A stretch of DNA of 53,287 nucleotides from Bryobacteraceae bacterium (lineage in GTDB: Bacteria; Acidobacteriota; Terriglobia; Bryobacterales; Bryobacteraceae), in assembly GCA_014860455.1 (NCBI GenBank), contig JACZJQ010000082.1, positions 1 to 53,287 on the forward strand, in the 5' to 3' direction. The notes under the pieces were generated by a model. It was not told the DNA's origin, searched no databases, and saw only the letters and a list, made by a program, of their open reading frames with translations. This document shows positions 11,149 to 44,310 of this stretch, one piece after another. A program made the position numbers and the translations under genes. The first letter of the stretch is position 1; each line of letters opens with the position of its first letter.

Positions 11149-11160
11149 GCGGAGGACGCC

Positions 11161-11382
11161 ATGTACCTCGCCACAATCCTGGTCATCGCGCTCTCGCTCT
11201 GGTTCGTGCACTGGCTGACGGACTCCGAGCGCCGCCCCCTCACTCTCTCCGCGGCCCGCCTGCTTCGGCGTGCGGGCCGCTGGCTCTGGGCCACCGGCGA
11301 GGCGGTGGAGGTCGGCTACTTCCACAAGCGCCAGGTGCGCGAGAGCATTCAGCTCGAACTCGAAGAGGGAAAACGGCCATGA
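11161..11382 (+). CDS. small single-pass membrane protein
   Basis: 73 aa from ATG 11161 with GCGGAGGA upstream. Residues 2-20 (YLATILVIALSLWFVHWL) form one membrane segment, followed by a basic cytoplasmic tail. Its stop overlaps the next ATG (ATGA), so it belongs to the element operon. No function can be assigned. Confidence 0.65.
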   Translation: MYLATILVIALSLWFVHWLTDSERRPLTLSAARLLRRAGRWLWATGEAVEVGYFHKRQVRESIQLELEEGKRP

Positions 11383-11995: not shown

Positions 11996-12474
11996 TGGCA
12001 GCACCCGCATACAGCCTAGATGCCTGGCGGCGTTTCCGCGAGCAAAAGGGGAGGCCGGAAACACCCGCGAGTTCTCCGCCGGGAATCACTCTGGCGGACA
12101 TTCCCGCCGACGCGGAGATGGATGACGGCATCGTCATCGGCTTCTGGAACGGCGAGCGGTTCGTGTCGTGGGAGAAGTGGCTCGCGACGGCGCCGATCAC
12201 GGTGGATCCGGCGTCGGCGTCTCCGGCATTGCCTGAGGCCACCGCTTATCGAGCCACTTGCGGCGGCACGCTGGTTTGGCTGCGGAAGGACGGGGACCGC
12301 TGGCTGATGTTTGCCGGAACGCAGAAGACCCGCCGCAGGGATTTCGCCTCGCCGTTTCTGGAACACGCGATCCGCACGGCGGAGGCTTGGTACGGGCCGG
12401 CAGCTGGCGGATGGTGCCCGGTCGAGCGAGCGGCCGCACGGAAGGAGGAGGCATATGCCGATCCGGCCCAGTGA
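11995..12474 (+). CDS. uncharacterised element protein
   Basis: 159 aa with no recognised domain. It has a proline-rich N-terminal third, an aromatic-rich middle (GFWNGERFVSWEKWL) and a C-terminal region ending in AWYGPAAGGWCPVERA. It is coupled to the VRR-NUC gene by TGATG and overlaps the HNH gene by about 20 nt, which places it in the same operon. Confidence 0.65.
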   Translation: MAAPAYSLDAWRRFREQKGRPETPASSPPGITLADIPADAEMDDGIVIGFWNGERFVSWEKWLATAPITVDPASASPALPEATAYRATCGGTLVWLRKDGDRWLMFAGTQKTRRRDFASPFLEHAIRTAEAWYGPAAGGWCPVERAAARKEEAYADPAQ

Positions 12475-12856
12475 ACGACACCGCTATCCGAAGGACTGGA
12501 AGACAATCCGCCAGCGAATCCTCGAGCGCGCCGGACATCGGTGTGAGTTTTGCGGCGTCGAGAACGGCGCCATCGGCCGCCGCAAGCGCGACGGCAGCCT
12601 CGAACGCTTCCAAGGGATGGAAGTCGAGGCTGCGGCGCTTGAAGGCATCCGCCTCCTGCGCATCGTCCTCACGATTGCCCATCTCGACCACACGCCCGAG
12701 AACAACGCTGACGACAACCTGCGGGCCCTGTGCCAGCGCTGCCACCTACTGCACGACCGGCCGCATCACCTGCGCAACGCTCGCCTTACACGCCTCCGCA
12801 AGTTGGATTCGGCTAGGCCTCTCCTTGCGGACCTGCGACCAGGGGGTGGCCGGTGA
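12455..12856 (+). CDS. HNH endonuclease
   Basis: 133 aa from ATG 12455, chosen because a strong GGAAGGAGGAGG ribosome site lies just upstream. Zinc pairs are C30-x2-C33 and C93-x2-C96. The HNH core is AHLDH (H76, H79), N88 in DDNLRALC and a final H near 97-100. HNH proteins of this size are common in phage and element operons as homing, packaging or restriction nucleases. It overlaps the primase GTG start. Confidence 0.85.
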   Translation: MPIRPSERHRYPKDWKTIRQRILERAGHRCEFCGVENGAIGRRKRDGSLERFQGMEVEAAALEGIRLLRIVLTIAHLDHTPENNADDNLRALCQRCHLLHDRPHHLRNARLTRLRKLDSARPLLADLRPGGGR

Positions 12857-14589
12857 ACTCGGACCCACGGACCTTCCTCCTTGATCTCTTCGGCGGCAAA
12901 CCTGACCAAGCCTACGTGCTGATCTGGACACTTGCCGACAAGCGGTCGCACTGGTTTCAGAGCCTGGAAGAAGCAGCCGCATTCGTCGCCGGTGTTCGCG
13001 CGCGGGACGTTTATGTCGGCGTCGGCCTTTCGCCCGAGGATTTCGGGCCCGCGCATCGCTGCCCATCGGACAAGATCACGGGGCTGGCCGGCTTCTGGGC
13101 CGACCTCGATCTGAAGTCCGACGCGCACGCCAAGACCAAGCTGCCAACTACGATCGCGGACGCCCTCAGTGTGATCCCTACGGAGATGGCGCCCACCTTG
13201 GTGATCGCCACCGGTAACGGAGCGCACGCCTGGTGGCTGTTCAAGGAGCCGCTGATGTTCGATTCCGAGCAGGAGCGGCGGCAGGCGGCCAGTCTCATCT
13301 CCCGTTGGCAGACGCTGCTCCGGTTGAACGCGGCCAGCAAGGGCTGGGCATTTGACCGCCTGTCCGACTTGGCGCGCGTACTTCGGATCCCCGGAACCGT
13401 CAACGCGAAGGACCCAAAGAATCCCAAGAGTGTCGTAGTCCACTCCAACTCCGGACGGCGCTACAACCCGAGTGATTTCGTGGAGTTCCTCGACGATACC
13501 GGCGTCGCTGATCCCGAAAGCGAGAACGGCGCGGCGCGCGAGTGGGGAGAGCAGTTTCGCGACAAGCCGCTGACGGTCGACTCGAAGGCTCGCATCCCCC
13601 AAGAGATTCTCGACGGCTGGATGGCGCAGGACATGCGGTTCAGGAACACCTGGCTCCGGCAGCGCCACGATCTTCGTGACCAGAGCCAGAGCGGATACGA
13701 CCTCGCCCTCGCGCATTTCGGAATCGAGGCCGGCCTCAGTGAACAACAAATCGTTGATCTCATCATTCACCACCGCACGATCCATTCGCAGAAGCTCCGG
13801 ACGCGCGCCGATTACTTCGACCGGACCATCGCGGCGGCCGCCAACCGATCGGACGCCGCCGGAACTCCGCCGCCGGCACCATCCACCCCGGCAGAAGAAA
13901 GCAAACAAGAAGCACCTCCCCAAGACCCGGCGACCACAAAAGCCCGGCTCTGTGAGCGAATCTCCCAGGCACTCCAGGTCGTACGCCTCCTTCGGCTAAT
14001 CAAGATCACCGGCGAAGAGCCCACGTATGTGATGGAACTCGACGACGCCACAATCAAGTTCTCAAACGTCGCCAAGCTGATCGATCAGAAGAGCGTCCGT
14101 GTGGCCGTCGCCGCTGCCACCAACCGTCTGATCCCCCGAATCAAGCCGAAGGCCTGGGAGCAACTGGCGCAGGTCATGCTCGACGCGCTCACCGAACGTG
14201 AGGGCGGCGACGAAACCGATGCCGTCGGCGCGACCAAGATGTACCTGGCTCGTTATCTGTCCGAAACCGCCTTCATCCCTTCCATCGAGAGCCAGCCCAT
14301 CCAATCCGCGCACAAGCCCACCGTCATCAATGGCCAAATCGCCGTCTCCGCCAGCGACCTCCAAATGCACCTCAACAAGGTGCTCTTCCAGAACCTCTCG
14401 GTGAAAGCCATTGCGCAAATGCTGACCGTGATTGGCGCGAAGAGCCTGCGCATTCGGGGCGCCCGCCTCCGCGACCAGAGCCGCTGGCTGCTGCCCATTG
14501 AGATGTTCGATCCAGGCGACTTCGTTGCGCAATCGGACCCGCCGCACCGGCCCGCAACAGAGGAGGAGACAACCCATGCCCCCGACTGA
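12853..14589 (+). CDS. primase-polymerase (AEP-type) replication protein
   Basis: 578 aa from GTG 12853, overlapping the HNH stop (GTGA). The N-terminal 190 residues carry archaeo-eukaryotic primase-like motifs: FWADLDLK with D84 and D86, GNGAHAWW with H125, and DLARVLRIPGT starting at D172. This matches RepB/primase-polymerase domains of phages and plasmids. A proline/alanine-rich linker near 330-350 leads to a helical C-terminal domain that probably binds DNA or the helicase. It is the best candidate for the replication initiator or primase of the element. Confidence 0.8.
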   Translation: MNSDPRTFLLDLFGGKPDQAYVLIWTLADKRSHWFQSLEEAAAFVAGVRARDVYVGVGLSPEDFGPAHRCPSDKITGLAGFWADLDLKSDAHAKTKLPTTIADALSVIPTEMAPTLVIATGNGAHAWWLFKEPLMFDSEQERRQAASLISRWQTLLRLNAASKGWAFDRLSDLARVLRIPGTVNAKDPKNPKSVVVHSNSGRRYNPSDFVEFLDDTGVADPESENGAAREWGEQFRDKPLTVDSKARIPQEILDGWMAQDMRFRNTWLRQRHDLRDQSQSGYDLALAHFGIEAGLSEQQIVDLIIHHRTIHSQKLRTRADYFDRTIAAAANRSDAAGTPPPAPSTPAEESKQEAPPQDPATTKARLCERISQALQVVRLLRLIKITGEEPTYVMELDDATIKFSNVAKLIDQKSVRVAVAAATNRLIPRIKPKAWEQLAQVMLDALTEREGGDETDAVGATKMYLARYLSETAFIPSIESQPIQSAHKPTVINGQIAVSASDLQMHLNKVLFQNLSVKAIAQMLTVIGAKSLRIRGARLRDQSRWLLPIEMFDPGDFVAQSDPPHRPATEEETTHAPD

Positions 14590-16273
14590 AACCAACGCTA
14601 CAGGAACCCTCCAGGACATCGGCCAACTCGATCACTCGGTCACGTCGGAGTACCGCATCTTCGGTCCGCCCGGTACCGGCAAGACGACCAACCTCACTCG
14701 CCAGATTCGCCGCGCCGTCGAACGATTCGGCCAGGATTCCGTGCTCGTGACCAGCTTCTCCCGCACCGCCGCGGCCGAACTCGCCGGGCGCGATCTCCCG
14801 CTCAGCCCAGACCGGATTGGCACGCTGCACTCGCATTGCTTCCACGCGCTTGGCTGTCCGCAGATCGCCGAATGCAACGTCGACGACTGGAACAAGGACA
14901 ACCCCCACCTCCAGATCACCCCCAAAAAGAAGCAGGGGCGCCTGGACGGCGAGGAATCCGCCGACGATGACGGCACCGAAAGGGAGAAGTCCGGCGACGA
15001 CTACCTGGAACAACTGAACCGTTGGCGCGGCATGATGATCCCCACGGGCGGATGGCCGGCAGTGGTCCGTGAGTTTGCCGTCAAATGGCAGCAATATAAG
15101 GACGCGCACGGACTGCTCGATTTCTGCGACCTGATCGACATCGCCCTCCGCGACGTCCCGCTCGCACCCAAGACGCCCTCCGTCATCTTCGCCGACGAGG
15201 CACAGGATCTGAACCGGATGCAGCTGCGGCTCATCCGGAAGTGGGGCGAGCGCGCCAACTACTTCATCGTTGCGGCCGACGACGACCAGACCATTTACTC
15301 CTTCACCGGGGCGACGCCGGATGCGATCCTCGATCCGGACATTCCGGAGGACCACAAGATCATCCTGAAGCAGAGCTACCGCGTTCCGCGTGCCATCCAC
15401 GCCCGTGCGGTCCGGTGGATCGAGCAGGTGACGCGGCGGCAGGAGAAGGCGTACCTGCCGCGTCCTTTCGAGGGCGAACTGAACCGGCTATCGGGCGGAA
15501 CTTACAAATCGCCCGAGTACTACATCCTCAAGACCGCGCTCCAGCACCTCCAGCAGGGCAAGTCGGTCATGTTCCTGGCGACCTGTGGCTATATGCTGCA
15601 GCCCATCGTGCAGGTGCTCCGCAAGAACGCCGTCCCGTTCCACAATCCATACCGGCGCTCGAACGGCTTCTGGAACCCGCTTCGGATGGGACGCGGATCG
15701 AGCGCCAACCGCGTCCTCTCGCTGCTGGTGGCCCATCCGCAATTCGGGGAAGGCAGCCGCGCGTGGACCTGCGGTGACCTCGCGCTCTGGGCTGAGTGGC
15801 TCCACTCAGAGGGTGTCATGAAGCGCGGGGCTAAGAAGAAACTGCCGAGCCTGACAGCAGCCGACACGGCGACCATCGAAACCCTCGATGACACGTTCGA
15901 GCCTGGCGCGCTGGAAGCGCTTCTCAAGACTTTTGAAGGCGACTACCGCGAACTGCTCGACTGGTGGCGCCGGCGGTTGAACGCCACCATCTTCAAACGC
16001 GCGCAGTTCCCGGCGGACATCGCGGCCGCGCGCGGACCGCAGGCGCTGCTCGATGTTCCGCGCGTGGTCGTCGGGACCATCCACTCAGTGAAAGGCGGTG
16101 AGGCCGATGTGGTGTATCTCTTTCCGGATTTAAGCGGCGAAGGTGATGCCGCCTACCAGCAAGCCGGCGCGCCGCGCGATTCGGTGATCCGGCAGTTTTA
16201 CGTCGGCATGACGCGGGCGCGAGAGATCCTCTACATCTGCCAGCAGGAATCGGGAATGGCGGTGCGGATATGA
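14576..16273 (+). CDS. UvrD/Rep-type superfamily 1 helicase
   Basis: 565 aa from ATG 14576 with AGGAGGAG upstream; the longer upstream frame is a shadow of the primase gene. Walker A is GPPGTGKTT at 30-38, motif Ia is TSFSRTAA, Walker B is FADEAQDL near 200, motif III is ADDDQTIYSFTGA, motif V is VGTIHSVKGGEADVV and motif VI is FYVGMTRARE. All are intact, so it should be an active 3'-5' helicase. It overlaps its upstream and downstream neighbours and probably drives element replication. Confidence 0.9.
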   Translation: MPPTETNATGTLQDIGQLDHSVTSEYRIFGPPGTGKTTNLTRQIRRAVERFGQDSVLVTSFSRTAAAELAGRDLPLSPDRIGTLHSHCFHALGCPQIAECNVDDWNKDNPHLQITPKKKQGRLDGEESADDDGTEREKSGDDYLEQLNRWRGMMIPTGGWPAVVREFAVKWQQYKDAHGLLDFCDLIDIALRDVPLAPKTPSVIFADEAQDLNRMQLRLIRKWGERANYFIVAADDDQTIYSFTGATPDAILDPDIPEDHKIILKQSYRVPRAIHARAVRWIEQVTRRQEKAYLPRPFEGELNRLSGGTYKSPEYYILKTALQHLQQGKSVMFLATCGYMLQPIVQVLRKNAVPFHNPYRRSNGFWNPLRMGRGSSANRVLSLLVAHPQFGEGSRAWTCGDLALWAEWLHSEGVMKRGAKKKLPSLTAADTATIETLDDTFEPGALEALLKTFEGDYRELLDWWRRRLNATIFKRAQFPADIAAARGPQALLDVPRVVVGTIHSVKGGEADVVYLFPDLSGEGDAAYQQAGAPRDSVIRQFYVGMTRAREILYICQQESGMAVRI

Positions 16274-17121
16274 GCCTGATTCGCCTTCTCAAGAAGCGGA
16301 AACGTATCGCCGTTCCTCGGTGTGGAACTCCGGAGGAAAACACGCGAGCAGACCAACGCGCTGTTCGATTGGCCATGCTCGCCAGGCGACCGGAGACCAT
16401 ACTGGTCAACATCCAGGCGGTCGTGAACGACTTGGTGATCAGTCCAGGTCAGCGTATCGCCGTCGACTGGCGTGAGACGCCCCAGGTCACGCCGCCGTAT
16501 CCAAGCATGTGGATGGAAGCGATCGCCCTCGGGAAGAGGGTAGGACTGCAGGTAGTTCGCGAAGCTACCGACGAGGTCGTCCGTGGCTCCCGCGCGCGAT
16601 TCAAAGCGGCGATCTATTTCTGGCAAGAAGAGAATGCCGAGGTGACCGGCCCGAGTGGCCAGACCTTCCTTTGGATTGATGACGCCGGCGCGATCATCTC
16701 TGCTGAGTTCCGCGTCACTGGCGAAATGCATGAACCACCGGAGGAGGTCAGCGACGGCCAGCAGGTCCTCACGTTCCTTGTGGCGCACGCCCTGGCGCGC
16801 ATGAATTGCCGCAACGTGGTCCTGCGGCCAATCGCGTCACCCAAAGTCGCGCGGCGGCACCAGCGTGATCTCGTGCCGGCGACTGTGTGGCACGAGATCC
16901 GCATCACGGATGTCCCACAGGTCCGCTCGACTGGGCGGGGCGTCCTTGGCCGTGACGAATCGAGGATGCGCCGGTTCTGGGTGCGCGGCCACTATGCCGA
17001 CTACCGCAACGGCGCCGGGCTGTTCGGCAATCCAAAATTGCGCTGCGTGTTCTGGATTCCCGAGCACCAGCGGGGCAACCCGGAACTGGGCGATGTGATT
17101 CCGGAGTACACGCTGGCGTGA
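16270..17121 (+). CDS. uncharacterised phage-type protein
   Basis: 283 aa from ATG 16270, overlapping the helicase stop. The C-terminal third (VRGHYADYRNGAGLFG, RCVFWIPEHQRGN) resembles unannotated proteins of actinophages and other elements whose function is not known to me. The N-terminus is strongly basic. It sits between the helicase and the integrase, at the end of the replication operon. Confidence 0.7.
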   Translation: MSLIRLLKKRKRIAVPRCGTPEENTRADQRAVRLAMLARRPETILVNIQAVVNDLVISPGQRIAVDWRETPQVTPPYPSMWMEAIALGKRVGLQVVREATDEVVRGSRARFKAAIYFWQEENAEVTGPSGQTFLWIDDAGAIISAEFRVTGEMHEPPEEVSDGQQVLTFLVAHALARMNCRNVVLRPIASPKVARRHQRDLVPATVWHEIRITDVPQVRSTGRGVLGRDESRMRRFWVRGHYADYRNGAGLFGNPKLRCVFWIPEHQRGNPELGDVIPEYTLA

Positions 17122-17145: not shown

Positions 17146-18471
17146 ATGCCTCTGAATGAAGTTAGCCTTCAGGCCCTGACTGGAGGCGTCATTTTGAAAC
17201 GGCGAGTACAGCATCCAATGGTCCACGAACGGAAGGACCGTGGAAGCTACTACTGGTTCTTCCGCTATTACGCGGACGAGATCCAGCGTGACGGCTCGGT
17301 AAAGACCACCCGGAAGTTCTACACCATCGGCCCCAGCCGCGGCGAGGGCGCCATTGGGAAGCGGCAGGCGGAGATTGAGCGCGACAAGTTTCTGGCGAAG
17401 TTGAATGCCCCCACGACGGAAGAGGCTACCCAACAAGCCTTAACAACGGGCATCGCACTGTTCGGCGAGGTCGCCAGAATGTACGAGGAGGGGTACCTCG
17501 GCCGCGAACGTCAGATCAGCAAGCCGACGCGTGTCAAGGAGAAGTTTTACCTCGACAGCTACCTCGTGCCGCGCTGGGGCAAGGTTCGCCTGAACGAAAT
17601 CAAGCCCAAGGCGGTGGAGGACTGGCTCCATACAACATTCGACGCGTGGTGGACCATGCACGGCGTGCGCGCCATCATGAGCCGGATCTTCTACTATGCC
17701 GAGGGTCACGGCCTCTGGGAGGAAGGCAAACGCAGCCCAGCCAGCAAGGCGAAACTCGGCAAGAAACGCTACAAGAATGAGCGCCGCATCCTTTCTTTTG
17801 ACGAAACCGCGCGCGTCCTGGCGCACCTGGATGAACCCAACAAGCTCGTAACCGAAACCTGCATTGCCACCGGCGCGCGGATCTCGGAGGTGCTGGGCCT
17901 CAAGTGGAAGCACGTGAACCTCGACGCCGCGACGATCAAGATCGAACAGCGCGTCTGGCAACAGGACGTCGGCCGCCCCAAGAGCGAGGATAGCCGGCGC
18001 ATCCTGGGCATCGGCAATCTGGTCGACCGCTTCCGGCAGAAGTCGGCGGAGGATCGCGCGAAGCCGGAGGCCTGGGTGTTTCACCAGAAGCGCGACAAGA
18101 CCCGTCCGATGTGGGATTCCGGCGTCCGCGACGCTCTGCACCAGGCCGCCGCTGCCGAGGAATGCGATTTCCCCGGCTTGGGGCTGCACTCCTTCCGCCG
18201 CGCGAACATTACGTGGCGGCAGGAGGTGGGTGGCAGTGCAATCGAGGCCTCCAAAATCGCCGGCCACAGCGATCTGGAGATGACCAGCGAGTACACTTTT
18301 GTCGCGCCCGAGCGCCAGAATGAGCTAACCCGCCGCATCCAGGAACGGCTTGCTAACGCCGCAGCCAAGACTGAGAAGACTACAGGGGAACCGACACCGG
18401 ACGGACCGATCACCCCGGAAGTTCCACCCAGCATCGCCGAACTGCAGCCCGCCACGGATGCCATTCAGTGA
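17146..18471 (+). CDS. tyrosine recombinase/integrase
   Basis: 441-aa phage-type integrase. It has an N-terminal arm- and core-binding region (about 30-200) and then the catalytic domain with R245 (GARISEVLGLKW), a Lys around 279, H348-x2-R351 (LHSFRRANITW), H374 and the nucleophile Y383 (SEYTF), so all catalytic residues are present. The C-terminal 45 residues are a proline-rich tail. The probable attachment site is the tRNA-Pro fragment at about 23,187. It is unusual that roughly 4.7 kb of cargo separates the two, since integrases often lie next to att. Confidence 0.9.
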   Translation: MPLNEVSLQALTGGVILKRRVQHPMVHERKDRGSYYWFFRYYADEIQRDGSVKTTRKFYTIGPSRGEGAIGKRQAEIERDKFLAKLNAPTTEEATQQALTTGIALFGEVARMYEEGYLGRERQISKPTRVKEKFYLDSYLVPRWGKVRLNEIKPKAVEDWLHTTFDAWWTMHGVRAIMSRIFYYAEGHGLWEEGKRSPASKAKLGKKRYKNERRILSFDETARVLAHLDEPNKLVTETCIATGARISEVLGLKWKHVNLDAATIKIEQRVWQQDVGRPKSEDSRRILGIGNLVDRFRQKSAEDRAKPEAWVFHQKRDKTRPMWDSGVRDALHQAAAAEECDFPGLGLHSFRRANITWRQEVGGSAIEASKIAGHSDLEMTSEYTFVAPERQNELTRRIQERLANAAAKTEKTTGEPTPDGPITPEVPPSIAELQPATDAIQ

Positions 18472-22461: not shown

Positions 22462-22743
22462 TCAGCAGTAATCATCCATCCAAGCATCATCCGCTGGGAA
22501 GTAAACAGTCGGATCAAGTCCCAGGCTTCGAAGGATCTCCCATGCCTGGTCCTGTTCGACCTCCAGCTGATCTAGGGTAGGGCGGCCGGCAATGCGATCC
22601 GGCAGGCCCAGTCTAGAGCGGACGTAGTTCGCCGCGCTCTTACCCTCAGCGCGCGCCTTCGCTTCGATGAGCATCATCTCAGCGCGGTTCACCTGGCAGC
22701 GGAGTTGCTGGCGAGTAAGGGCCATGGGCAGGACGGACGGCAT
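22462..22743 (-). CDS. ribbon-helix-helix-like small protein
   Basis: About 93 aa from ATG 22743; ATG 22788 or 22725 are also possible and none has a strong ribosome site. The segment RCQVNRAEMMLIEAKARAEG followed by SAANYVRSRLGLP has the strand-helix-helix pattern of RHH/MobC-like DNA-binding proteins. The acidic, tryptophan-containing tail is unassigned. It lies upstream of the three-gene modification-like operon on the same strand, separated by about 190 nt, and could regulate it or be part of an element mobilisation or antitoxin function. Confidence 0.55.
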   Translation of the reverse strand: MPSVLPMALTRQQLRCQVNRAEMMLIEAKARAEGKSAANYVRSRLGLPDRIAGRPTLDQLEVEQDQAWEILRSLGLDPTVYFPADDAWMDDYC

Positions 22744-22858: not shown

Positions 22859-23186
22859 TTTTAAGCGGCGAGTACAACCGCGCGCGTACGCGAGCCTTGT
22901 GAATCCCCACGGCCGGAGCATGTGGCCGTCCCCGCCCAACAGCCGGCTCCTCCCGTGCACTGCGGAGGCAATGTCCCTTCGTTGGATCTCACGTAACGAA
23001 AGGAAATGGCAGGTTCGCCTCGTCAGATTCAGCACTAGCTCGGGATCCCGATCGGGCCCATATCGGAGTCCTTTGGAGTCCAGATGCCGTGTAGAGGCGC
23101 GCTGGCGTCCAATTGGAGACCAAATCGGTCGCGTCTAAGTCTTTTGTTTTCCGTGCACGCTGCCTGTAAGTGATTGATTTACTTGG

Positions 23187-23232
23187 CTTGGGGTGCAAGA
23201 GGTCCCGGGTTCAAATCCCGGCGGCCCGACCA
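23187..23232 (+). repeat. attachment-site remnant: 3' fragment of tRNA-Pro(GGG)
   Basis: From about 23,188 the sequence is tRNA-like: anticodon loop TTGGGGT (anticodon GGG, G37), stem strand GCAAG, variable loop AGGTC, T-stem CCGGG/CCCGG around TTCAAAT, acceptor strand CGGCCCG, discriminator A and encoded CCA. The partner anticodon strand (TTGGC) pairs poorly, and no D-arm or 5' acceptor precedes it, so this is not a full tRNA. It is the typical direct-repeat scar left when an integrase uses a tRNA 3' end. The intact tRNA-Pro is expected left of the window, on the plus strand. The exact left edge of the repeat is uncertain. Confidence 0.8.
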
Positions 23233-23347
23233 AAAGAATTAAAGACTTACAAGTCTCCCCTCCTCCACAACGGCTCTCCCCCAAAACCGGGGGACAGGCG
23301 ATTCACGACTCCCTACCACTCAACCGGCCTGCAATGGCCAGGCCGAA

Positions 23348-24319
23348 TCAGGGCAATATGAACGGCACTCCGTTGCGCCAGCCGATCCGGGCGAACGACA
23401 GGAACCACGTCTTCCCCTTGTCGTTGTTGCCCTGATAGAAAAGGTAATCGCGCCCCCTTCCGTCAGCGAAGATGCAGGGATGGCCGGATTCCGATGAGTT
23501 CCACTCGCCCTCACGCCCATTGGCGAGCAACGGTTCGTTGAACAGCCTCTTCCAAAGAACTCCGTCGGTGCTGCGGGCACAGCCGACCTGCTGCGGAGCG
23601 TTGTTGTAGCCGCCGGCGTAGAACATGTAAAGCGAGCCGCCACGCTCGATGATCGATGGCGCTTCGATGCAATCCCGTTCCCACGGTAGTTCAGGGCGGA
23701 GCAACGGTCCGTCGCCGATCTGGCGCCAGGACTGGCGGCCGAAATCGGAGTCCTTCGACGCGCTGGCTCCAGTGATCATTTGGACTTTCATGCCGGGATC
23801 CCGCGTGGCCGCGTAGAGGAGCCAGCGGCCTTGGAACGCGATCACCTCCGCGTCGATGGCCCGGCCCGCATTCCAGTTGCCCGTGGGCCGGAACACCGGA
23901 TTCGACGCATCCCGCGTGAACCGGATTCCGTCACCGGAGACAGCGTGGCAGATGGCGTCGTTCCGGCCGTTGCCGTAGGTCTGATAGAAGAGGTGAACCC
24001 TGCCCCCCGTCAACAGGGCGCAAGGCGCGCAGATGCCGTTTCGCTCGCACTCCTGCTCCGGCTCGATCTCAGCAACTTTGTTCCAGCGGTAGAGATCGCG
24101 GCTCTCCGCGATTCCGATGACCCAGTTCCGCAACTGGCCTTCAGCCTCGGTGGTGGGCGTCGAATAGTAAAGCAGATAGCGTCCGCCGAAACGGATCACG
24201 GAAGGGTCCTTGGAGTAGGGGCGGCCAAGGCGCGAGGAATCGGCCCACAACATCCTGGGCGGTTCGGCTGCCGCCGCCCATGCCCCGGCCAGGTGGATCG
24301 GGAAATCTCTACGTCGCAT
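23348..24319 (-). CDS. GH43-like five-bladed beta-propeller protein, secreted
   Basis: About 323 aa from ATG 24319 with GAGAGGTGA upstream. It has an arginine-rich signal region (MRRRDFPIHLAGAWAAAA), then propeller blades with SKDPSVIRFGGRYLLYYS, a GNWNAGRAIDAEVI block and IEAPSIIERGGSLYMFYAG; Asp and Glu in these positions fit the acid/base pair of GH43/GH117-like clans. Substrate is not predictable. It is last in a minus-strand set with a sialidase and a ribokinase, which suggests degradation of an externally supplied glycan. It is the first host gene right of the attachment fragment. Confidence 0.75.
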   Translation of the reverse strand: MRRRDFPIHLAGAWAAAAEPPRMLWADSSRLGRPYSKDPSVIRFGGRYLLYYSTPTTEAEGQLRNWVIGIAESRDLYRWNKVAEIEPEQECERNGICAPCALLTGGRVHLFYQTYGNGRNDAICHAVSGDGIRFTRDASNPVFRPTGNWNAGRAIDAEVIAFQGRWLLYAATRDPGMKVQMITGASASKDSDFGRQSWRQIGDGPLLRPELPWERDCIEAPSIIERGGSLYMFYAGGYNNAPQQVGCARSTDGVLWKRLFNEPLLANGREGEWNSSESGHPCIFADGRGRDYLFYQGNNDKGKTWFLSFARIGWRNGVPFILP

Positions 24320-24347
24320 ATTCAATCACCTCTCACCGGCATGGGCC

Positions 24348-25439
24348 TCAAGTCGCGCTCAGATCGTCGATGTGGAACATCGCCAGCGTGATGCGCTCGT
24401 ACGGCGACTTCACGCCGCGCTCATACAGGCAGGCGAAGCGGTTTCGCGCGACCGGGGCCAGGCATGAATAAGCCGACGGACCCGTCTCCAATACCAACGA
24501 CCGCGGCCAGCTTTTGCCGTCATCGCGGCTTGCCCGCACGGTCATGTTCACCCTTCGCGTCGACGCCGGATTCGAAAACAGCAACACGTTGCCTTCGCGG
24601 ATGAGACTGGCCTGGCAGACGGGCTCAACCAGCGCCTGGTCGTGGGTTATGTCGCCCCACGTCACGCCTCCATCCCGGCTGATGGCTACCGCCCGTTGGT
24701 TGTTGCCATGGTAGGCGCGCATGTTGAGCATCAGCGAGCCGTCGCGCAACTCGACCACCTGGCATTCGTTCACCTTCTCGCCCAGCCGTTCGCCCCGCTT
24801 CCAGGTGCGGCCCTGATCGTCGCTGTAGATGCAGTGTGAAAAGAACGCTTTGGTCCCGGCCTGGGCGTGGTCGCAGGGAATCACCATGCGCCCGGATCGA
24901 AGCTGGATGCCGACGCCAGGGCCGGTGGCGTACCAGGTCCAGTCCGGTGCCTTGACCGATGCCGTGATCTCGGCCGGCTTGGACCAAGTCAGGCCATCGT
25001 CAGTGCTGGTCGAAACCCACACCTGACGGGTCTCCTTCACCGTCTGCTCGATGATCTGCTTTTCCACGACGTGGCCGGGGTTGGATGTCAGCAGGAGATG
25101 GATCGTGCCGGTTTTGCGATCGACCACGGGACACGGGTTGCCGAGACAATCCGGGCCCATATCCAGAATCGTCACCGGCTCTGACCAAGTGCGTCCTCGA
25201 TCCGTGCTCCGCCGCAACACGATATCGATGTCGCCGCTGTCACCCCGTCCGCCGCGCCTGCCTTCGCAGAACGCGAGCAGCCTCCCCTTTTTCGTGGGCA
25301 GCAGGGACGGGATGCGGTAGGTGTGATATGCACCTTCGCCGCTGACAAACAGGTCGGTCTGGATGACCGCCGGCCGCGCGGCCGAAGCCGCGCCCGCGCT
25401 GAGCAGAAGGAGGTATTCGCGCCTGGTTATAGCTGCCAT
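24348..25439 (-). CDS. sialidase-like exo-glycosidase (BNR repeats)
   Basis: 363 aa from ATG 25439. The RREYLLLLSAGAASA signal is Tat/Sec-like. It shows the YRIP motif near residue 45 and five Asp boxes (STDRGRTW, STDDGLTW, SDDQGRTW, SRDGGVTW, SRDDGKSW), the hallmark of the six-bladed sialidase fold (GH33 and relatives). It probably releases terminal sugars, not necessarily sialic acid. It lies between the ribokinase and the GH43-like gene on the same strand with short gaps. Confidence 0.85.
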   Translation of the reverse strand: MAAITRREYLLLLSAGAASAARPAVIQTDLFVSGEGAYHTYRIPSLLPTKKGRLLAFCEGRRGGRGDSGDIDIVLRRSTDRGRTWSEPVTILDMGPDCLGNPCPVVDRKTGTIHLLLTSNPGHVVEKQIIEQTVKETRQVWVSTSTDDGLTWSKPAEITASVKAPDWTWYATGPGVGIQLRSGRMVIPCDHAQAGTKAFFSHCIYSDDQGRTWKRGERLGEKVNECQVVELRDGSLMLNMRAYHGNNQRAVAISRDGGVTWGDITHDQALVEPVCQASLIREGNVLLFSNPASTRRVNMTVRASRDDGKSWPRSLVLETGPSAYSCLAPVARNRFACLYERGVKSPYERITLAMFHIDDLSAT

Positions 25440-25508
25440 TGTCGTTCTCAGCCCACCGTCATGCAATCTCTCGCATGCCGACCGCGAACCAGAGAAGGCG
25501 CCCGCGCT

Positions 25509-26456
25509 CTAACGGATCAAGAGGAACTCTTCCACCTCTGCGCGGCCCGGCGCGGAGGACTGCGCGCCAAGCCGTGTGACCGAAATGGCGGCGGCGGCGT
25601 TCGCAAATCGAAGCGCGTCCTCGATTGGCCGCCCTTCGGAGAGTGCGATGGCCAAGGCAGCGTTAAATGTGTCGCCCGCCGCGGTCGTGTCGACGGCATC
25701 CACCTTGAAGCCAGCTGAAAACACCTCCGTGCGGCCGTCGGAATAGAAGCACCCGGCGTCTCCGAGTTTCAGCACAACAGCCTTGGGCCCAAGCCCAAGA
25801 ACTTCGTGTGCAAGGCTTGGCGCATCGGCGGGCGCAAGCCGGGCAGGTGGGCGTCCAAGCAGAATGCAGGCCTCGGTTTCATTTGGCGTCATCAGGTCAA
25901 CCAGTCGCAGCAACGACGCAGGCAACTGCCGCGCAGGAGCCGGATCGAGGATCGTCATCGCTCCTGCGGCGCGGGCGGTGGAAAGTGCCGCCTCCACCGC
26001 GTCAATCGGCGTCTCCAACTGGAACAGAGCGCATGCGGCGCCCGCGTAGGCTTCGCCGAGTCCGGCGATCATCTCCGGATTGACCTCGTTATTCGCGCCC
26101 GAAGCGACGACGATCGAGTTCTGCCCCGAACGCTCCACCCAGATCAGCGCCACGCCCGTCGAGACGCCGGCCACTTGACGGACACAAGACACATCCACGC
26201 CCGAAGCCATGAGGCTGTCTTTTAGCTGTGTGGCGAAGGCGTCCTCGCCAGTGCAACCAATCATGCGGACTGTGCCAGCGGCGGCCAGTCGCCCGGCTGC
26301 GTTGGCCTGGTTGGCGCCCTTGCCTCCGGGGATTGTAAGAAAGTTGCTGCCGAGTGTGGTCTCTCCGGGGGCGGGCAGACGGTCCACCTGAACCACGAAA
26401 TCCATATTCAGAGAACCGGTGACGATGATGGCTGAGTTTGTGTCGGGCACCCTCAT
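25509..26456 (-). CDS. rbsK: ribokinase (PfkB family)
   Basis: 315 aa. The family signatures GGKGANQANAAGR (about 44-56) and DTTAAGDTFNAALA (near 258-271, with the catalytic Asp in GD) are present, along with the NETE motif near 195. It phosphorylates D-ribose or a similar sugar with ATP in the cytoplasm. ATG 26456 is divergent from fhs. Downstream are two extracellular sugar-acting enzymes, so the substrate may be a sugar released by them. Confidence 0.88.
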   Translation of the reverse strand: MRVPDTNSAIIVTGSLNMDFVVQVDRLPAPGETTLGSNFLTIPGGKGANQANAAGRLAAAGTVRMIGCTGEDAFATQLKDSLMASGVDVSCVRQVAGVSTGVALIWVERSGQNSIVVASGANNEVNPEMIAGLGEAYAGAACALFQLETPIDAVEAALSTARAAGAMTILDPAPARQLPASLLRLVDLMTPNETEACILLGRPPARLAPADAPSLAHEVLGLGPKAVVLKLGDAGCFYSDGRTEVFSAGFKVDAVDTTAAGDTFNAALAIALSEGRPIEDALRFANAAAAISVTRLGAQSSAPGRAEVEEFLLIR

Positions 26457-26556
26457 ATCTTATTGCCGGCGCATCGCGGGCGGGGCCATGCGGCCTGGGC
26501 CGGCCTTCCATCCGGCAGCCTGCGGCGATATCATGCCGCCGGAGGATCATACTGCA

Positions 26557-28176
26557 ATGCTTCTGATTCGAGAGGTCGCCGACAAACTCGAGATCCCGGA
26601 TGAGTACATGGAATACTACGGCCGCTACACGGCCAAGCTCAGGCTTGAACTCCTCAACCGCCCCCAGCGCAAAGGGAAGCTCATCCTGGTCACCGCGATT
26701 ACCCCAACCAGCCACGGCGAGGGCAAGACCGTCGTCTCGATCGGACTGACGCAGGCGCTGGTGAAACTTGGCTGCAATGCGGCGGTCACGCTGCGGGAAC
26801 CGTCGCTAGGTCCGGTGTTCGGAATCAAGGGCGGAGCCACCGGCGGTGGTCAGTCGCAGGTGCTGCCAAGCGACATCATCAACCTGCACTTCAACGGCGA
26901 CATCCACGCCGTCTCGTCGGCGCACAACCTGCTGGCAGCGATGATCGATTCACACCTGCACCATGGCAACTCGCTGCGCATCGACGTCGACAACATCACC
27001 TGGCCCCGCGCTCTCGACATGAACGACCGCGCGCTGCGCAACGTGATCGTCGGCCTCGGGGGCAAGGCTCACGGCATCCCGCGTGAAACGGGCTTCGTGA
27101 TCACCGCCGCCAGCGAGGTGATGGCGATCCTCGCGCTGGCTGCGGACAGGGAGGACCTGCGCCGCCGCCTGAACGAAATCGTCATCGGCTTCGACCTCGA
27201 GAACCGCGCAGTCCGCGCCGCCGACCTTCGAGCCACCGGAGCCATGATGGTGCTGCTCAACGAGGCGCTGATGCCCAACCTCGTGCAGACTACTGAGGGT
27301 GCGCCGGCGTTTGTCCACGCCGGCCCGTTCGCCAATATCGCCCACGGCACAGCCAGCGTGATCAGCCAGAAGATGGCCCTCGGCTTGGCTGATTACGTTG
27401 TGAACGAATGCGGCTTCGGCGCCGACCTCGGCGCGGAGAAGTACTTCGATCTCGTCATGCCGGCATCGGGCATCAAGCCGTCGCTGGCCGTGCTGATCGC
27501 CTCTGCAAGGGCGCTATGTGCACAGGGCGCGGCCAACGAAGCAGGCCCGTTCACGCTGGACACGCTTCGCGCCGGGTTTGCCAATCTCGATCGCCATATC
27601 GGAAACCTTCGGAAGTTCGGCGTTCCGGTACTGGTGGCTATCAACCGTTTCCCCGGCGATGCGGAGGACCTGGTGGCGGAGATCGGACGCCACTGCGAGG
27701 CGATGGGAGTTGAAAGCGCGTCCTGCGACGTCTTTACGCAAGGCGGCGAAGGCGGGCTGGAGCTGGCGAAGAAGGCGGTTGCGCTCTGCGAGCAGGAATC
27801 CAATCCCGCGCCGATCTACGACTATTCGCTGCCGCTCCAGCAGAAGACTCGCGTCATCGCTCAAGAGATCTACGGCGCCGCGGACGTCTACTTCGAGACC
27901 GAAGCGCGCAAGACCCTGGCCCGCCTCGCCGAGGCCGGTTTCGAACGTCTGCCGGTCTGCGTCGCCAAGACGCAGTCTTCAATCACCGACCGGGCGAAGA
28001 TCTACGGCGCGCCCGAGGGCTGGACGATGACGGTGAGCGGCGCCCACCTGTCGGCCGGCGCGGGCTTCGTCGTGGTCACCGCGGGCAACATGATGCGTAT
28101 GCCTGGACTGGGCAAGACGCCGCAGGCTCACAACATGGAAGTGGACCCCGGCGGCGTGATCACAGGGCTGCACTAA
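26557..28176 (+). CDS. fhs: formate-tetrahydrofolate ligase
   Basis: 539 aa, close to the family length of about 555. It makes 10-formyl-THF from formate, THF and ATP for one-carbon metabolism. The P-loop region THGEGKTVVSIGL-like (PTSHGEGKT) and the long conserved stretch REPSLGPVFGIKGGA are intact. ATG 26557 is preferred over 26533 or 26419 because GGAGGAT lies 9 nt upstream. It is divergent from the ribokinase with about 100 nt between them. Confidence 0.95.
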   Translation: MLLIREVADKLEIPDEYMEYYGRYTAKLRLELLNRPQRKGKLILVTAITPTSHGEGKTVVSIGLTQALVKLGCNAAVTLREPSLGPVFGIKGGATGGGQSQVLPSDIINLHFNGDIHAVSSAHNLLAAMIDSHLHHGNSLRIDVDNITWPRALDMNDRALRNVIVGLGGKAHGIPRETGFVITAASEVMAILALAADREDLRRRLNEIVIGFDLENRAVRAADLRATGAMMVLLNEALMPNLVQTTEGAPAFVHAGPFANIAHGTASVISQKMALGLADYVVNECGFGADLGAEKYFDLVMPASGIKPSLAVLIASARALCAQGAANEAGPFTLDTLRAGFANLDRHIGNLRKFGVPVLVAINRFPGDAEDLVAEIGRHCEAMGVESASCDVFTQGGEGGLELAKKAVALCEQESNPAPIYDYSLPLQQKTRVIAQEIYGAADVYFETEARKTLARLAEAGFERLPVCVAKTQSSITDRAKIYGAPEGWTMTVSGAHLSAGAGFVVVTAGNMMRMPGLGKTPQAHNMEVDPGGVITGLH

Positions 28177-28179
28177 GGG

Positions 28180-29154
28180 CTATTCGAGGAGATGCGGATA
28201 GGCCGCGCAGACGCGGTCGATCTCTTCCAGTTGGCCCGGCGAAAGCGATTCGTCCTCGTCCAGGCACCAGATGCCCTGCATCCGGCCCTGCCTGCGCAGC
28301 ACTTCGTGGATGCCCGCGATGCAGCCGTGGAAGTGGTTCGCCGCATCGAACAGCGCCGCGTTCAGATCCGTCAACTGTGCGCCCAGCGCCAGCAGCAGCG
28401 ACAGCGGCGTCTGTCCCGCATGAATCCGCGTCAATAGTTCAACGGCGGCGCGAGTGCCGACCGACCACTGGCCGAGCAATCCGCCCGTGATTCGCACGGT
28501 CTGTCCGGAGAACGTGAACGGCGTGATCAGGTCGGCAATGATGTTGTCATCGTTGCCCGTGTAGAGCGCGATCTCTTTCGCCCGCCCGGATTCAATCACG
28601 CCGCGGATGACGTCGAGCGTCTGGTAGCGGTTGAACGGCGCCATCTTGATGGCCACCAGATTTTCGATCCCGGCTGCTTTGCGCCAGAACTCGTACGGCA
28701 GCGCGCGCCCGCCCACGGCCGGTTGCAGATAGAAACCAACCACCGGGATCACCTTCGCGATAGCGGCCATGTGATCCACCATCTCGTCGATGGTCGAGTT
28801 CTTCAGTGCGCACAGGCTCACCAATCCGGCGTGATATCCCAATTCGCGCGCCAGTTCCGCTTCGCGCAAAGCCTGCGGCGTGGGTCCACAGACACCGGCG
28901 ACGAGAATGCAGTCCCGTTCGCGAGCCTCTTCTTCGGCCATGCGCAACACCGGTTCGAGCAACCCGTAGCGCGGCTCGCGGATGGCGAATTGCGTCGTGT
29001 GGACGCCCACCGCGATGCCGCCTGCTCCCGAATCCAGGTAATAGCGGGTGAGGCCGCGCTGCGCAGCCTCGTCGAGCTTCCTGCTTGCGTCCAGCGCCAG
29101 TGGATGCGCGGGGATGACACATCCCTTCATGAGCCGTTCGCGGAGATTATCCAT
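28180..29154 (-). CDS. DapA-family (dihydrodipicolinate synthase-like) aldolase
   Basis: 324-aa TIM-barrel protein of the DapA/N-acetylneuraminate lyase family. The Schiff-base lysine is in AIKMAPFNRYQ, and YYLDSGAGGIAVGVHTTQFA matches the family's GTTGE-equivalent region. Substrate is unlikely to be aspartate semialdehyde given the sugar-related neighbours. ATG 29154 follows the upstream epimerase-like stop by 2 nt, so they form an operon. It is convergent with fhs. Confidence 0.85.
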   Translation of the reverse strand: MDNLRERLMKGCVIPAHPLALDASRKLDEAAQRGLTRYYLDSGAGGIAVGVHTTQFAIREPRYGLLEPVLRMAEEEARERDCILVAGVCGPTPQALREAELARELGYHAGLVSLCALKNSTIDEMVDHMAAIAKVIPVVGFYLQPAVGGRALPYEFWRKAAGIENLVAIKMAPFNRYQTLDVIRGVIESGRAKEIALYTGNDDNIIADLITPFTFSGQTVRITGGLLGQWSVGTRAAVELLTRIHAGQTPLSLLLALGAQLTDLNAALFDAANHFHGCIAGIHEVLRRQGRMQGIWCLDEDESLSPGQLEEIDRVCAAYPHLLE

Positions 29155-29156
29155 GG

Positions 29157-30149
29157 TTAGAACTTCCCGTCCCTGACTTGAAACTTCGTCGGCTTGCCCA
29201 GCAATTCGCCGTCCGCGCCCACCCACTCAGCCACCAAGCCAATCAGTTCTTCCACCCCGACATCCGGCATCCCGAACGTTTTGTGACAATCGGCGGCATT
29301 GTTCAGCAATGCCGTTGGCTGCTCCTGCCCGGTGAGCACGGGTTCCTTGCCCAGGCGTTTGCCGAACTCGACGGCGAGATCGCGGACGCGCAGCGTTTCC
29401 GGACCTGTCAAATTGACAACGCGCGGTGGCGTCGAGGCCACTCCAAGCGAGCGGAAGCAGACCGAATTCGCATAGCCCTGCCAGACGATGTTCACATAGC
29501 CCATCGACAGGTCGACTGCCACACCGTCGCGAACCTTCACGGCGATGTCCACCAGCACTCCGTAACGCAGTTCAACCGCATAGTTCAGCCGCAGCAGCGA
29601 GACCGGCGTTCCGAACTCCATCGCCGCGTAAGTGAACATCCTCTCGCGGCCCAGAGCCGACCACGCGTACTCGCCCACCGGATCCACTGGCGTCTCCTCG
29701 GTCGCGCCGCCGCTCTCGACAGGGACCAGCGGATAAACGTTGCCCGTGGAAAAACTGACGATGCGCGATTTCCGGTAACGCCGAGCGACCAGTGCCGGCA
29801 GCAGAACGTTGGTCGACCATGTCTGCTCCGGCGCTCCCGTCGACCCGAACTTGCGCGCCGCCAGAAACAGCACGTTCGGTGCGTCAGGAAGCGATTCGAG
29901 AGCGCCGTCGGCCAGGATATTCGACTGCATGTGCCGTACGCCCGGAATCTCCAGCGCGCCGCGTGAAACCGTGATCACCGCGTGAGGACTGCCTGCCGCA
30001 TCCATCGCCCGGCGGATCCTGCGCGCCAGCGACGGACCCATCTTGCCCGCTGCGCCGAGAATGAGCACATCGCCGTCCAACCGCCTCGCGAAGTCAATGT
30101 CTTGTTCCAGAGGCGCCGATAGCCGGTCCTCGAGTTCGTCGATCGTCAT
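29157..30149 (-). CDS. NAD-dependent epimerase/dehydratase-like protein
   Basis: 330 aa, extended SDR fold. The dinucleotide-binding loop is GAAGKMG near residue 32, with SFSTGNVYPL as the catalytic-serine region. The expected YxxxK is replaced: the tyrosine region reads GEYAWSALGRERMF, without Lys at the +4 position. It therefore may be non-catalytic, use Arg, or belong to an SDR subgroup with altered chemistry. It is coupled to the downstream DapA-like gene. Start ATG 30149. Confidence 0.8.
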   Translation of the reverse strand: MTIDELEDRLSAPLEQDIDFARRLDGDVLILGAAGKMGPSLARRIRRAMDAAGSPHAVITVSRGALEIPGVRHMQSNILADGALESLPDAPNVLFLAARKFGSTGAPEQTWSTNVLLPALVARRYRKSRIVSFSTGNVYPLVPVESGGATEETPVDPVGEYAWSALGRERMFTYAAMEFGTPVSLLRLNYAVELRYGVLVDIAVKVRDGVAVDLSMGYVNIVWQGYANSVCFRSLGVASTPPRVVNLTGPETLRVRDLAVEFGKRLGKEPVLTGQEQPTALLNNAADCHKTFGMPDVGVEELIGLVAEWVGADGELLGKPTKFQVRDGKF

Positions 30150-30196
30150 TTGCCTCGTATTCTACAGGAGCGCGGCGAGCGTCCGCCCGTTTGGCA

Positions 30197-31630
30197 TCAG
30201 TCGCAGTCCGTCGAAACACGGTCCAGGGCTTCGCCGTCCGGCCCGTACAACTCAATAACCAGCGGCGTCTGGCCCAGCGCATGCGTCGAACACGATAAGC
30301 ACGGATCGAATGCCCGCACCACCGCCTGCACTCTGTTCAACATGCCCTCTTCGATCCGCTCGCCCTTGACGAACCGCTTCGCCACCTGATCCACCGCCCG
30401 GTTCATCGCAAGGTTGTTGTGCCCCGTGGCGATGATCAGGTTGGCCCATGTCATCGCGCCTGACTCATTCACCTTGTAGTGGTGGATCAACACTCCTCGC
30501 GGGGCCTCGGCGATGCCCGCTCCCTCCAGCGCATTGACGTCGGCGCGCGCCCGGACATGCGTGTCGAGGATCTTCGGATGGTTCAGCAACTGCTCCATCC
30601 GCTCCACACCGTACATCGCTTCAATCAACCGTGCGTAGTGGTAGAAGAACGAACTCTGGACATCGCGCCCCAGTCGCTGGCGGTACTCGGCCAGTTCTTC
30701 GTCGGCCTCCGGCGTGCCGCACCGTTCGGCGACATTCAACCGCGCCAGCGGGCCCACCCGGTAGTTGCCCTCCGGGAAGCCGCGCGGTTTGAAGTACGGC
30801 GCTTTCAAATACGAGTGCGGCAGCACACCTTCGCCGATGTAGTTCGCGTAGTCCAGCGGGTCTTCGACGTCGGCAATGGTACCGCCGGCCGCCGGGTCGC
30901 GGAAACGCAGAATGCCGTCGTAGAGCCGCAGATCGCCCGACGCCGAAACAAGGCCCGCATACATTGTCGGCTCGTTGCCAAAGCTCTCGATCTCGGCCTC
31001 AAAGCGGTCGATGATTGAAACGAACAGCTTGATCGCCCTTCGGATGATCGACTTCGCGATGTTGATCTCGCTCAGGATCGCGTCGCGGGAGTCTGATGTC
31101 AACGGCGCGTTCACGCCTCCAGGGACGGTCCAAGACGGATGCACCCGCTCACCGGCCATGCGTTCGATGGCCAACTGGCCGAACTTCCGCAGCGCGATGC
31201 CGTCGCGCGCCAGGTCGGGGTGCTTTTCGAGAATCCCCACGATGTTCCGTTTGCGCGGATCGGAGTCCATTCCAAGCAGCAGATCCGGCGACGACAGATG
31301 GAAGAAGCTCAGCGCATGCGACTGCACGATCTGCGCGCAATGCAGCAGTTCACGGAGCATCTCGGCCGTCTTTGGAATGCGCACCGCCATGATCGCGTCG
31401 CACGCCTTCACCGACGCCAGCAAATGGCTGATCGGGCAGATGCCGCAGATGCGCGCCGTGATCGACGGCATCTCGTAATACGGCCGCCCCTCGACGAACT
31501 TCTCAAAGCCGCGCACCTGCGTGACGTGGAACTGCGTCGATGTCACCTCACCCGCGTCGTTCAGGTGAATGCTCACCTTGCCATGGCCCTCGATCCGCGT
31601 GATGTGCGGGATGACGATTTTCTTGCCCAT
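30197..31630 (-). CDS. hoxH: [NiFe]-hydrogenase large subunit HoxH
   Basis: 477 aa from ATG 31630 with GAGGAG upstream. It holds the Ni-Fe site: N-terminal ligands in RICGICP (C62, C65) and C-terminal DPCLSCSTH (C444, C447, H450), followed by a 27-residue extension that HoxW-type proteases normally cleave after the histidine. Sequence features and operon order point to the group 3 NAD-linked bidirectional hydrogenases. It is last in a hoxEFUYH order on the minus strand. No hyp or hoxW maturation genes lie in the window. Confidence 0.93.
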   Translation of the reverse strand: MGKKIVIPHITRIEGHGKVSIHLNDAGEVTSTQFHVTQVRGFEKFVEGRPYYEMPSITARICGICPISHLLASVKACDAIMAVRIPKTAEMLRELLHCAQIVQSHALSFFHLSSPDLLLGMDSDPRKRNIVGILEKHPDLARDGIALRKFGQLAIERMAGERVHPSWTVPGGVNAPLTSDSRDAILSEINIAKSIIRRAIKLFVSIIDRFEAEIESFGNEPTMYAGLVSASGDLRLYDGILRFRDPAAGGTIADVEDPLDYANYIGEGVLPHSYLKAPYFKPRGFPEGNYRVGPLARLNVAERCGTPEADEELAEYRQRLGRDVQSSFFYHYARLIEAMYGVERMEQLLNHPKILDTHVRARADVNALEGAGIAEAPRGVLIHHYKVNESGAMTWANLIIATGHNNLAMNRAVDQVAKRFVKGERIEEGMLNRVQAVVRAFDPCLSCSTHALGQTPLVIELYGPDGEALDRVSTDCD

Positions 31631-31640
31631 CCGACTCTCC

Positions 31641-32180
31641 TCAGCCAAATTTCACCAGACCCGCCAGCTCAGGCTTCTTGCCGTCCAGCAGGCTGGTCAA
31701 TACATGCGCGATCGCGCCCGGCGCCGGCGGGCATCCAGGAATATGAATATCCACCTTCACCACCTCGGCCAGCGGTACCGCATGACGCAGCAGCGCCGGC
31801 ACGCCATCGGTGGGAATCGCCGGCGCAGCGTCGGCGCCTTCGATGTACAACCGTTCGAGCAGTTTCTTCACCGGAATCGTGTTGCGCATTGAAGGAACGT
31901 TCGATGTCACCGCGCAGTCGCCCAGCGAGATCAGGATCCTGGTCTTCGACCGGATCGTCTGCGCCAGTTTCTGGTCGCCGATGGATGAAACAGCGCCCTC
32001 GACCAGCGCCACGTCCACCGCCTCCGGATACTCCGGCGTATCCACCAGCGGTCCGTACACCAGTTCCACTCTTTCCACCAGCGCCACCAGCAACTCGTCC
32101 ACATCCAGCAGCGACATATGGCAGCCAGAACAACCGTCCAGCCACGCCGTCGCCAGCTTCACCTTTGTTTGTCCGCTCAA
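31641..32180 (-). CDS. hoxY: [NiFe]-hydrogenase small subunit HoxY
   Basis: 179 aa starting at TTG 32180; a strong GGGGAGGTGG sits right before it and its TTGA overlaps the hoxU stop. Proximal [4Fe-4S] ligands are visible: DGCSGCHMS near 15-20, a Cys in GDCAVT, and PGCPPAPGAI near 150. It passes electrons between HoxH and the diaphorase module. Length is typical for soluble group 3d small subunits. Confidence 0.92.
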   Translation of the reverse strand: MSGQTKVKLATAWLDGCSGCHMSLLDVDELLVALVERVELVYGPLVDTPEYPEAVDVALVEGAVSSIGDQKLAQTIRSKTRILISLGDCAVTSNVPSMRNTIPVKKLLERLYIEGADAAPAIPTDGVPALLRHAVPLAEVVKVDIHIPGCPPAPGAIAHVLTSLLDGKKPELAGLVKFG

Positions 32181-32887
32181 CGTCCACCTCCCCTGACCGC
32201 GGTCAGCCGCTCGACCGACGCCGTCCGCTTAATCATTTCCTCCACGGCGAAGCCCTTCTCCGCCAGCGCGCCCGTCGGGCACACCTGCACGCACTTGCCG
32301 CACGATGTGCAGTTGCGCGACGCGCCCCACGTCCGGTTCATCTCGCACGTCAGCATCGAGTGGATCCCGCGCCCGGCAATGTCCCATACATGCGCCCCTT
32401 CAACCTCCGCGCACACCCTGACGCATCGCGTGCAGAGGATGCACCGGTTGTGATCCAGCACATAGCGCGGGTGCGACAAATCCACGCCAAGCTTCGGGTA
32501 ACGGTAGCCGTAGCGCACATTGGTCACGCCCAGCGCCGTCGCCAGCGACTGCAGCTCGCAGTGCCCGTTCGACACGCAGACCGCGCACACGTGGTTGCGT
32601 TCCGACAACAGCAACTCCAGCGCCTGCTTCCTGTATGCGTCCAGTCGCGCTGAACGGATGGTCACCGACATCCCCTCCTGCGCCGGCGTGGTGCAGGACG
32701 GCAGCAACCGGTTGACGCCCGCCACCTCCACCATGCACAGCCGGCAGGCACCCACCGGCTTCAGCCCTTTCATATTGCAGAGGCCCGGGATGTGCTTCCC
32801 GTTGGCTTTCGCCGCCTCGAAGATGGATGCCCCCCGGTCGGTCTTCACCAACTCGCCGTCGATGCGGATTGTGATCTTGCTGTCCAT
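32177..32887 (-). CDS. hoxU: hydrogenase diaphorase subunit HoxU
   Basis: 236 aa, similar to the N-terminal part of NuoG. It has an N-terminal plant-type [2Fe-2S] region (CNMKGLKPVGACRLC, then C near 64), a His-Cys3 site (HVCAVCVSNGHC) and two 4Cys [4Fe-4S] motifs (CILCTRCVRVC and CTSCGKCVQVC). It wires the flavin module to HoxY. ATG 32887 has GAGGGAG upstream, and the stop overlaps hoxY. Confidence 0.93.
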   Translation of the reverse strand: MDSKITIRIDGELVKTDRGASIFEAAKANGKHIPGLCNMKGLKPVGACRLCMVEVAGVNRLLPSCTTPAQEGMSVTIRSARLDAYRKQALELLLSERNHVCAVCVSNGHCELQSLATALGVTNVRYGYRYPKLGVDLSHPRYVLDHNRCILCTRCVRVCAEVEGAHVWDIAGRGIHSMLTCEMNRTWGASRNCTSCGKCVQVCPTGALAEKGFAVEEMIKRTASVERLTAVRGGGR

Positions 32888-32911
32888 TTCTTGCTCCCTC
32901 GGCGCCAGCCC

Positions 32912-44308: not shown

Positions 44309-44310
44309 CT

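Follow-up and report, generated by a model that had tools for sequence, protein, structure and literature searches.

What does the 3' end of a tRNA gene mark when its 5' half is missing? The stretch of DNA analysed here (the window) is one whole contig of 53,287 bases (G000:C178) in the draft genome, G000, of a soil bacterium, with 5.29 Mb, 356 contigs and a completeness of 95.37. The initial annotation had read a tRNA-Pro(GGG) 3' fragment at 23187-23232 as the right end of a mobile element. The fragment is real and its identity begins one base earlier: all 47 bases of 23186..23232 on the plus strand are identical to positions 32-78 of the 78-nt intact tRNA-Pro(GGG) found in relatives. This tail comprises the anticodon loop TTGGGGT, the 3' anticodon stem, the T-arm, the 3' acceptor strand and an encoded CCA. 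The fragment is thus perfect from anticodon loop to CCA and lacks the 5' half, as had been described; ARAGORN found no tRNA in the 53,287 bases and Rfam gave no match in the window at gathering threshold. A 25-nt core of the tail occurs once in the window with up to three mismatches, and in none of 100 shuffles. We conclude that a temperate tailed phage, or a prophage-derived element, has very probably integrated here, with the tail as its attR, a tyrosine integrase of its own and the 3' part of tRNA-Pro(GGG) as attachment core.

Directly left of the tail, the place of the tRNA 5' half is occupied by an integrase-side arm (23074..23180, plus strand) with TGGNGWCCA repeats at 23074, 23103 and 23114, followed by TAAGTCTTTTGTTTTC at 23136-23151 and CTGTAAGTGATTGATTT at 23164-23180. 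Sites in the fetched loci were sorted into tails and intact genes after near-identical ones had been merged. With up to three mismatches allowed in the 45 bases before each site, the arm motif is present at 14 of 18 distinct tRNA-Pro tails and at none of 33 distinct intact tRNA-Pro genes. These loci are a part of the existing sites: core matches occurred in 43 of 61 genomes, and only some of those matches yielded loci. Random stretches of the window satisfy the same criterion in 0.06% of cases. At up to four mismatches the arm is found before 16 of the 18 tails, the two additional tails reaching the motif only at four, and the tails of L085 and L119 have no arm. The combination of arm and tRNA-Pro tail was also found on an IMG/VR contig. 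For locus L098, ARAGORN calls a 73-nt tRNA-Pro(GGG) at 13464-13536; this call spans arm and tail and was taken as false. Attachment joints of this element family may carry tRNA gene annotations.

A tyrosine integrase of 441 aa (17146..18471, plus strand; PF00589, E 7e-18) lies 4.7 kb upstream of the tail. It is preceded by a co-directional replication-type block (5947..17121, plus strand) that encodes proteins of 383 aa and 290 aa, an SNF2 helicase (8280-9923), a Pam3 gp33-like protein (9944-10387), a phrog_23155 protein (10405-11148), small genes including a nuclease-type gene (11687-11995), a primase (12853-14589), a UvrD-type helicase (14576-16273) and a 283 aa protein (16270-17121). The gene order of the block is the same in G063:C59 and is retained in part in L094, L096, L099 and L100. 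Block and integrase precede the same tail in three relatives, G063:C59 (integrase 82% identical), G005:C53 (94%) and G035:C22 (76%), and integrase and tail occur together in a further five contigs (G013:C8, G065:C16, G066:C227, G186:C18 and G194:C52). At a cut-off of E 1e-60, 27 of 200 genomes of the family, our own included, contain an integrase match. A contig search with the integrase returned ten loci: nine in acidobacterial MAGs at 71-94%, five of them labelled Bryobacteraceae or Bryobacterales, and one Mycobacterium match at 28%. IMG/VR yielded no close relative of the integrase or of a 247 aa protein.

Between the integrase and the tail lies a cargo slot whose gene content varies among relatives. 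In the window it holds three minus-strand genes encoding a TGT-like protein (18843-19997; like archaeal TGT, 1iq8, E 1e-8), an ArcS-like DUF5591 protein (20000-20881) and a 470 aa protein that belongs to no known family (20856-22268), none of which has a counterpart at the same place in G005, G063 or G035. The slot of G035 contains a type I restriction-modification set, and that of G063 five genes with matches below curated cut-offs or none. The TGT-like and ArcS-like proteins are possibly a nucleic-acid base modification pair. No relative of the TGT-like protein was found in IMG/VR, and the phage collection returned weak Sulfolobus virus matches only. Assignment to a Dpd system was considered and rejected: PADLOC fits the SNF2 helicase best to DpdE but many helicase families fit alike, and the TGT-like protein is only a weak DpdA match (E 2e-4). 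GC content is 0.55 at 20001-22500, compared with 0.615 in the left and 0.637 in the right part of the window. A small NikA-like gene (22462..22743, minus strand; weak PF21983 match) adjoins the arm and has an 87% identical counterpart in the corresponding position of G005. At the other extreme of the window, ARPP-1, SbcD- and SbcC-type genes (541..5884, plus strand), which have no counterpart adjoining the block in the relatives examined, are probably the left part of the element within the window. The proposal that the element is at least 23 kb long and includes everything from the left edge is therefore borne out by shared genes for approximately 5.9-18.5 kb and for the small gene at 22462, and is extended to 0.5-5.9 kb by inference.

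To the right of the tail, 23363..53287 carries GH43, sialidase-type, PfkB, FTHFS and NiFe hydrogenase-type genes, among others, and aligns with contig G003:C25 of a congener in five collinear blocks at 87-91%, beginning 131 bp right of the tail. Because the arm is directly on its left, the integrase family recurs before the same tail and the chromosome is collinear from 131 bp on its right, we place the tail at the right joint of the element, in agreement with the initial annotation. The accompanying contrast of phage and cargo genes on the left with ordinary genes on the right is sound from 23363 onwards, but the 37 bp that immediately follow the tail look like a left-end arm. It had also been asked whether the fragment occurs in genomes that lack the element. 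At the one locus compared, the shared right-hand block of G003:C25 has no tRNA-Pro tail beside it, the next gene to the left being a tRNA-Glu (read by eye). The homologue of this tRNA-Glu in our genome (G000:C282:5765-5842; tRNA-Glu(TTC) by ARAGORN) has a right-hand neighbour other than the GH43 block, and since the two genomes thus also differ by a rearrangement at tRNA-Glu, G003 is not a clean empty site. The notion that the GH43 block normally adjoins tRNA-Pro was dropped as unsupported, as in G003 this block adjoins tRNA-Glu.

An intact tRNA in the same orientation, expected at the opposite end, is present on the left-end contigs of relatives; the window contig ends before this point. On five such contigs (G063:C24, G035:C29, G066:C338, G005:C150 and G013:C42) an intact tRNA-Pro is followed by a 113 aa gene and/or a ParB-methylase; farther along, G063 has genes for both terminase subunits (small and large), the portal and the head protease. 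Such a packaging module is joined to the primase-UvrD pair on the 45,973-base IMG/VR contig 3300047539_000167: methylase, terminase, portal and protease genes occupy its first 9 kb, and the primase-UvrD pair lies at approximately 41.1-44.6 kb. IMG/VR relatives were found for both the G063 terminase and the UvrD of the window. None of the IMG/VR contigs with primase-UvrD, this one included, has a match to the window integrase. On another of them, L302, a tRNA-Asn(GTT) 3' tail (positions 28-75 of 75) lies at 16685-16732, some 5 kb after UvrD, and is possibly the attachment core of that contig. Integrase and structural module are linked only across separate contigs of one genome (C24 and C59 in G063, C29 and C22 in G035), and among the contigs seen none carries intact tRNA-Pro, whole element and tail together. 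These data indicate that the block is part of a tailed-phage family; as the contig stops short of the structural genes, we infer the same for the window copy.

Several observations count against the attR reading: no intact tRNA-Pro(GGG) was found in the draft, the window has no structural gene, the integrase has no close relative in IMG/VR and no match on the primase-UvrD contigs there, two of 18 tails lack an arm and two more have it only at four mismatches, no contig seen spans a whole element with both ends, and a NikA-like gene beside the arm is unusual for a phage. The armless tails of L085 and L119 could be dead pseudogenes, and the window tail might likewise have arisen when tRNA-Pro(GGG) decayed or was duplicated by chance, with no connection to the neighbouring genes to the left. 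We find this scarcely credible, as a conserved arm replaces the 5' half in the window tail and in 13 others, and integrase relatives lie upstream of the same joint in relatives. A non-phage element, namely an integrative mobilizable element or satellite with integrase and replication genes in common with phages, would account for the NikA-like gene, the lack of structural genes in the window and the primase-UvrD contigs of IMG/VR without a window-type integrase. We nevertheless judge it unlikely, because the tRNA-Pro end of relatives leads into ParB-methylases and, in G063, into terminase, portal and head protease, and because on C219, a second contig of our own genome, the tail is followed on its right by the same left-end genes.

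A further alternative is a variant of the attR reading rather than a competitor to it. The tail may be a joint between two elements, followed by the stub of an older element that had entered the same tRNA, and we give such tandem accretion an even chance. The 37 bases right of the tail (23233..23269, plus strand) contain an exact AAAGACTTACA at 23241-23251, and together with the tail they fall in an 84-bp match at 90% to a tRNA-Pro of G003 and its downstream arm. With up to three mismatches, AAAGACTTACA follows 14 of the 31 intact tRNA-Pro genes with enough sequence (12 of 31 when a GTCCAA repeat is also required) and 10 of the 18 tails, compared with 1% of random stretches. After tails, the left arm is complete with phage genes in C219 and accompanied by arm repeats in G063:C59. 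Tandem islands at a single tRNA are also known, as described in the excerpted Islander catalogue (PMC4383910). Against accretion, no GTCCAA repeats follow the stub in the window, the count falls to only three of 17 tails when such repeats are required, and ordinary chromosome from 23363 onwards leaves room for a remnant at most. The simplest reading is that these 37 bases are the remnant of an older element. G003 also carries such a remnant, its tRNA-Pro being followed by an arm and then by what is presumably the start of an IS21-type transposase.

The attR reading raises the question of where the left end of this prophage lies. A 32-nt core (up to three mismatches) was found twice in our assembly, in the window tail and at G000:C219:13155, and the latter is also a tail without a 5' half; neither match is an intact tRNA-Pro(GGG). 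The draft has 38 tRNA matches; among the 30 retrieved as loci are Pro(CGG) and Pro(TGG) but no Pro(GGG). Similarly, the first 21 nt of tRNA-Pro(GGG) (up to two mismatches) occur in the draft only in the Pro(CGG) and Pro(TGG) genes. The tail at G000:C219:13153-13199 is flanked by the integrase-side arm to the left and by the second arm to the right, after which come left-end genes: the 113 aa gene, a methylase 74% identical to that of G063 and a 152 aa protein 88% identical to one on an IMG/VR contig. The left part of C219 aligns collinearly with G003:C8 (93%) as far as the stop of a gene which we take to be hmgA. Just behind this hmgA-type gene, at 8681-8723 on the minus strand (locus L003), there is an inverted 43-nt tRNA-Arg(TCT) 3' tail, 93% identical, which is probably the end of a further element. 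From these two contigs, the prophage with its right end in the window may begin at the C219 tail, a scar, and not at an intact tRNA.

Integrase relatives also differ in their targets. We fetched 20 integrase loci, of which L202 is on the same contig as L097, and L205, L207 and L208 overlap L094, L093 and L096, respectively. Three have tRNA-Pro tails (integrase 70-81%) and seven have tRNA-Ala(GGC)-type tails (integrase 48-67%; L201, L204, L210, L211, L212, L216 and L219), the tail in L212 being recognized by eye only and L201 having no arm at the threshold. In L217 a partial tRNA-Val(GAC) match follows an integrase relative (51%), L213 shows tRNA-Val sequence but no clear tail, and in the remaining eight of the 20 loci no tRNA tail is seen. 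Where found, the arm is similar across Pro, Ala and Val targets. In L213 (G003:C13), the 5' part (1-42) of tRNA-Val(GAC) at 13562-13603 closely precedes an intact-length tRNA-Val match at 13778-13854, in the vicinity of an integrase relative and a NikA-like gene. Two proposals may be put forward jointly, and we regard them as tentative and rather doubtful: that the prophage, flanked by two orphan tRNA-Pro(GGG) tails (C219:13153-13199 and the window tail) neither of which regenerates the tRNA, integrated at the scar of an earlier relative; and that the integrase family keeps its arm while its tRNA target changes among Pro, Ala and Val at the same anticodon-loop position. If the former were true, displaced tails would be self-sustaining landing sites and a host could lose its tRNA-Pro(GGG) gene.

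Under the preferred attR reading, the 47-bp tRNA tail would sit between two arms in the circular form, with the integrase presumably binding these arms. Recombination with a chromosomal tRNA-Pro(GGG) would then rebuild an intact tRNA on the left and strand the displaced tail on the right, beyond integrase and cargo. The structural module of the window copy would lie beyond the contig edge.

The finding described here is well founded and of an ordinary kind: a prophage-type element from a little-described family, recognized by its right attachment joint. The use of tRNA tails as island boundaries is a principle long known; the element family in Bryobacteraceae is little studied, and a search of one limited literature collection for tRNA-Pro or attachment sites with acidobacterial prophages found no related paper. 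Arm plus tRNA tail provides a sequence signature with which this Bryobacteraceae phage family can be delimited in draft genomes. The comparison also reveals a slot for cargo genes, bounded by integrase and attR, which in one relative is filled by a type I restriction-modification set and here by a TGT/ArcS-like pair. Acidobacterial prophages have been reported (PMC5900883), as has a Bryobacterales provirus group (i) assigned to Caudoviricetes (PMC11924767); in the excerpts of these papers both are Caudoviricetes proviruses of the same bacterial order, likened to our element by description, with the attachment site not named in those excerpts. The large terminase of the G063 relative is approximately 54% identical over 93% of its length to that of Wolbachia phage WO, a likeness limited to the terminase, whereas the window integrase reaches approximately 20-23% identity to named phage records (best 8 of 278 matches). 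A close parallel is the Islander catalogue (PMC4383910), whose excerpted text covers tRNA-borne islands and prophages, an anticodon-loop attachment class and tandem arrays. Our element differs from those islands in that no regenerated tRNA for the opposite end turned up in its own draft and in that its host family is poorly sampled, and it resembles them in its displaced 3' tRNA fragment, its own integrase and its anticodon-loop class of attachment site.
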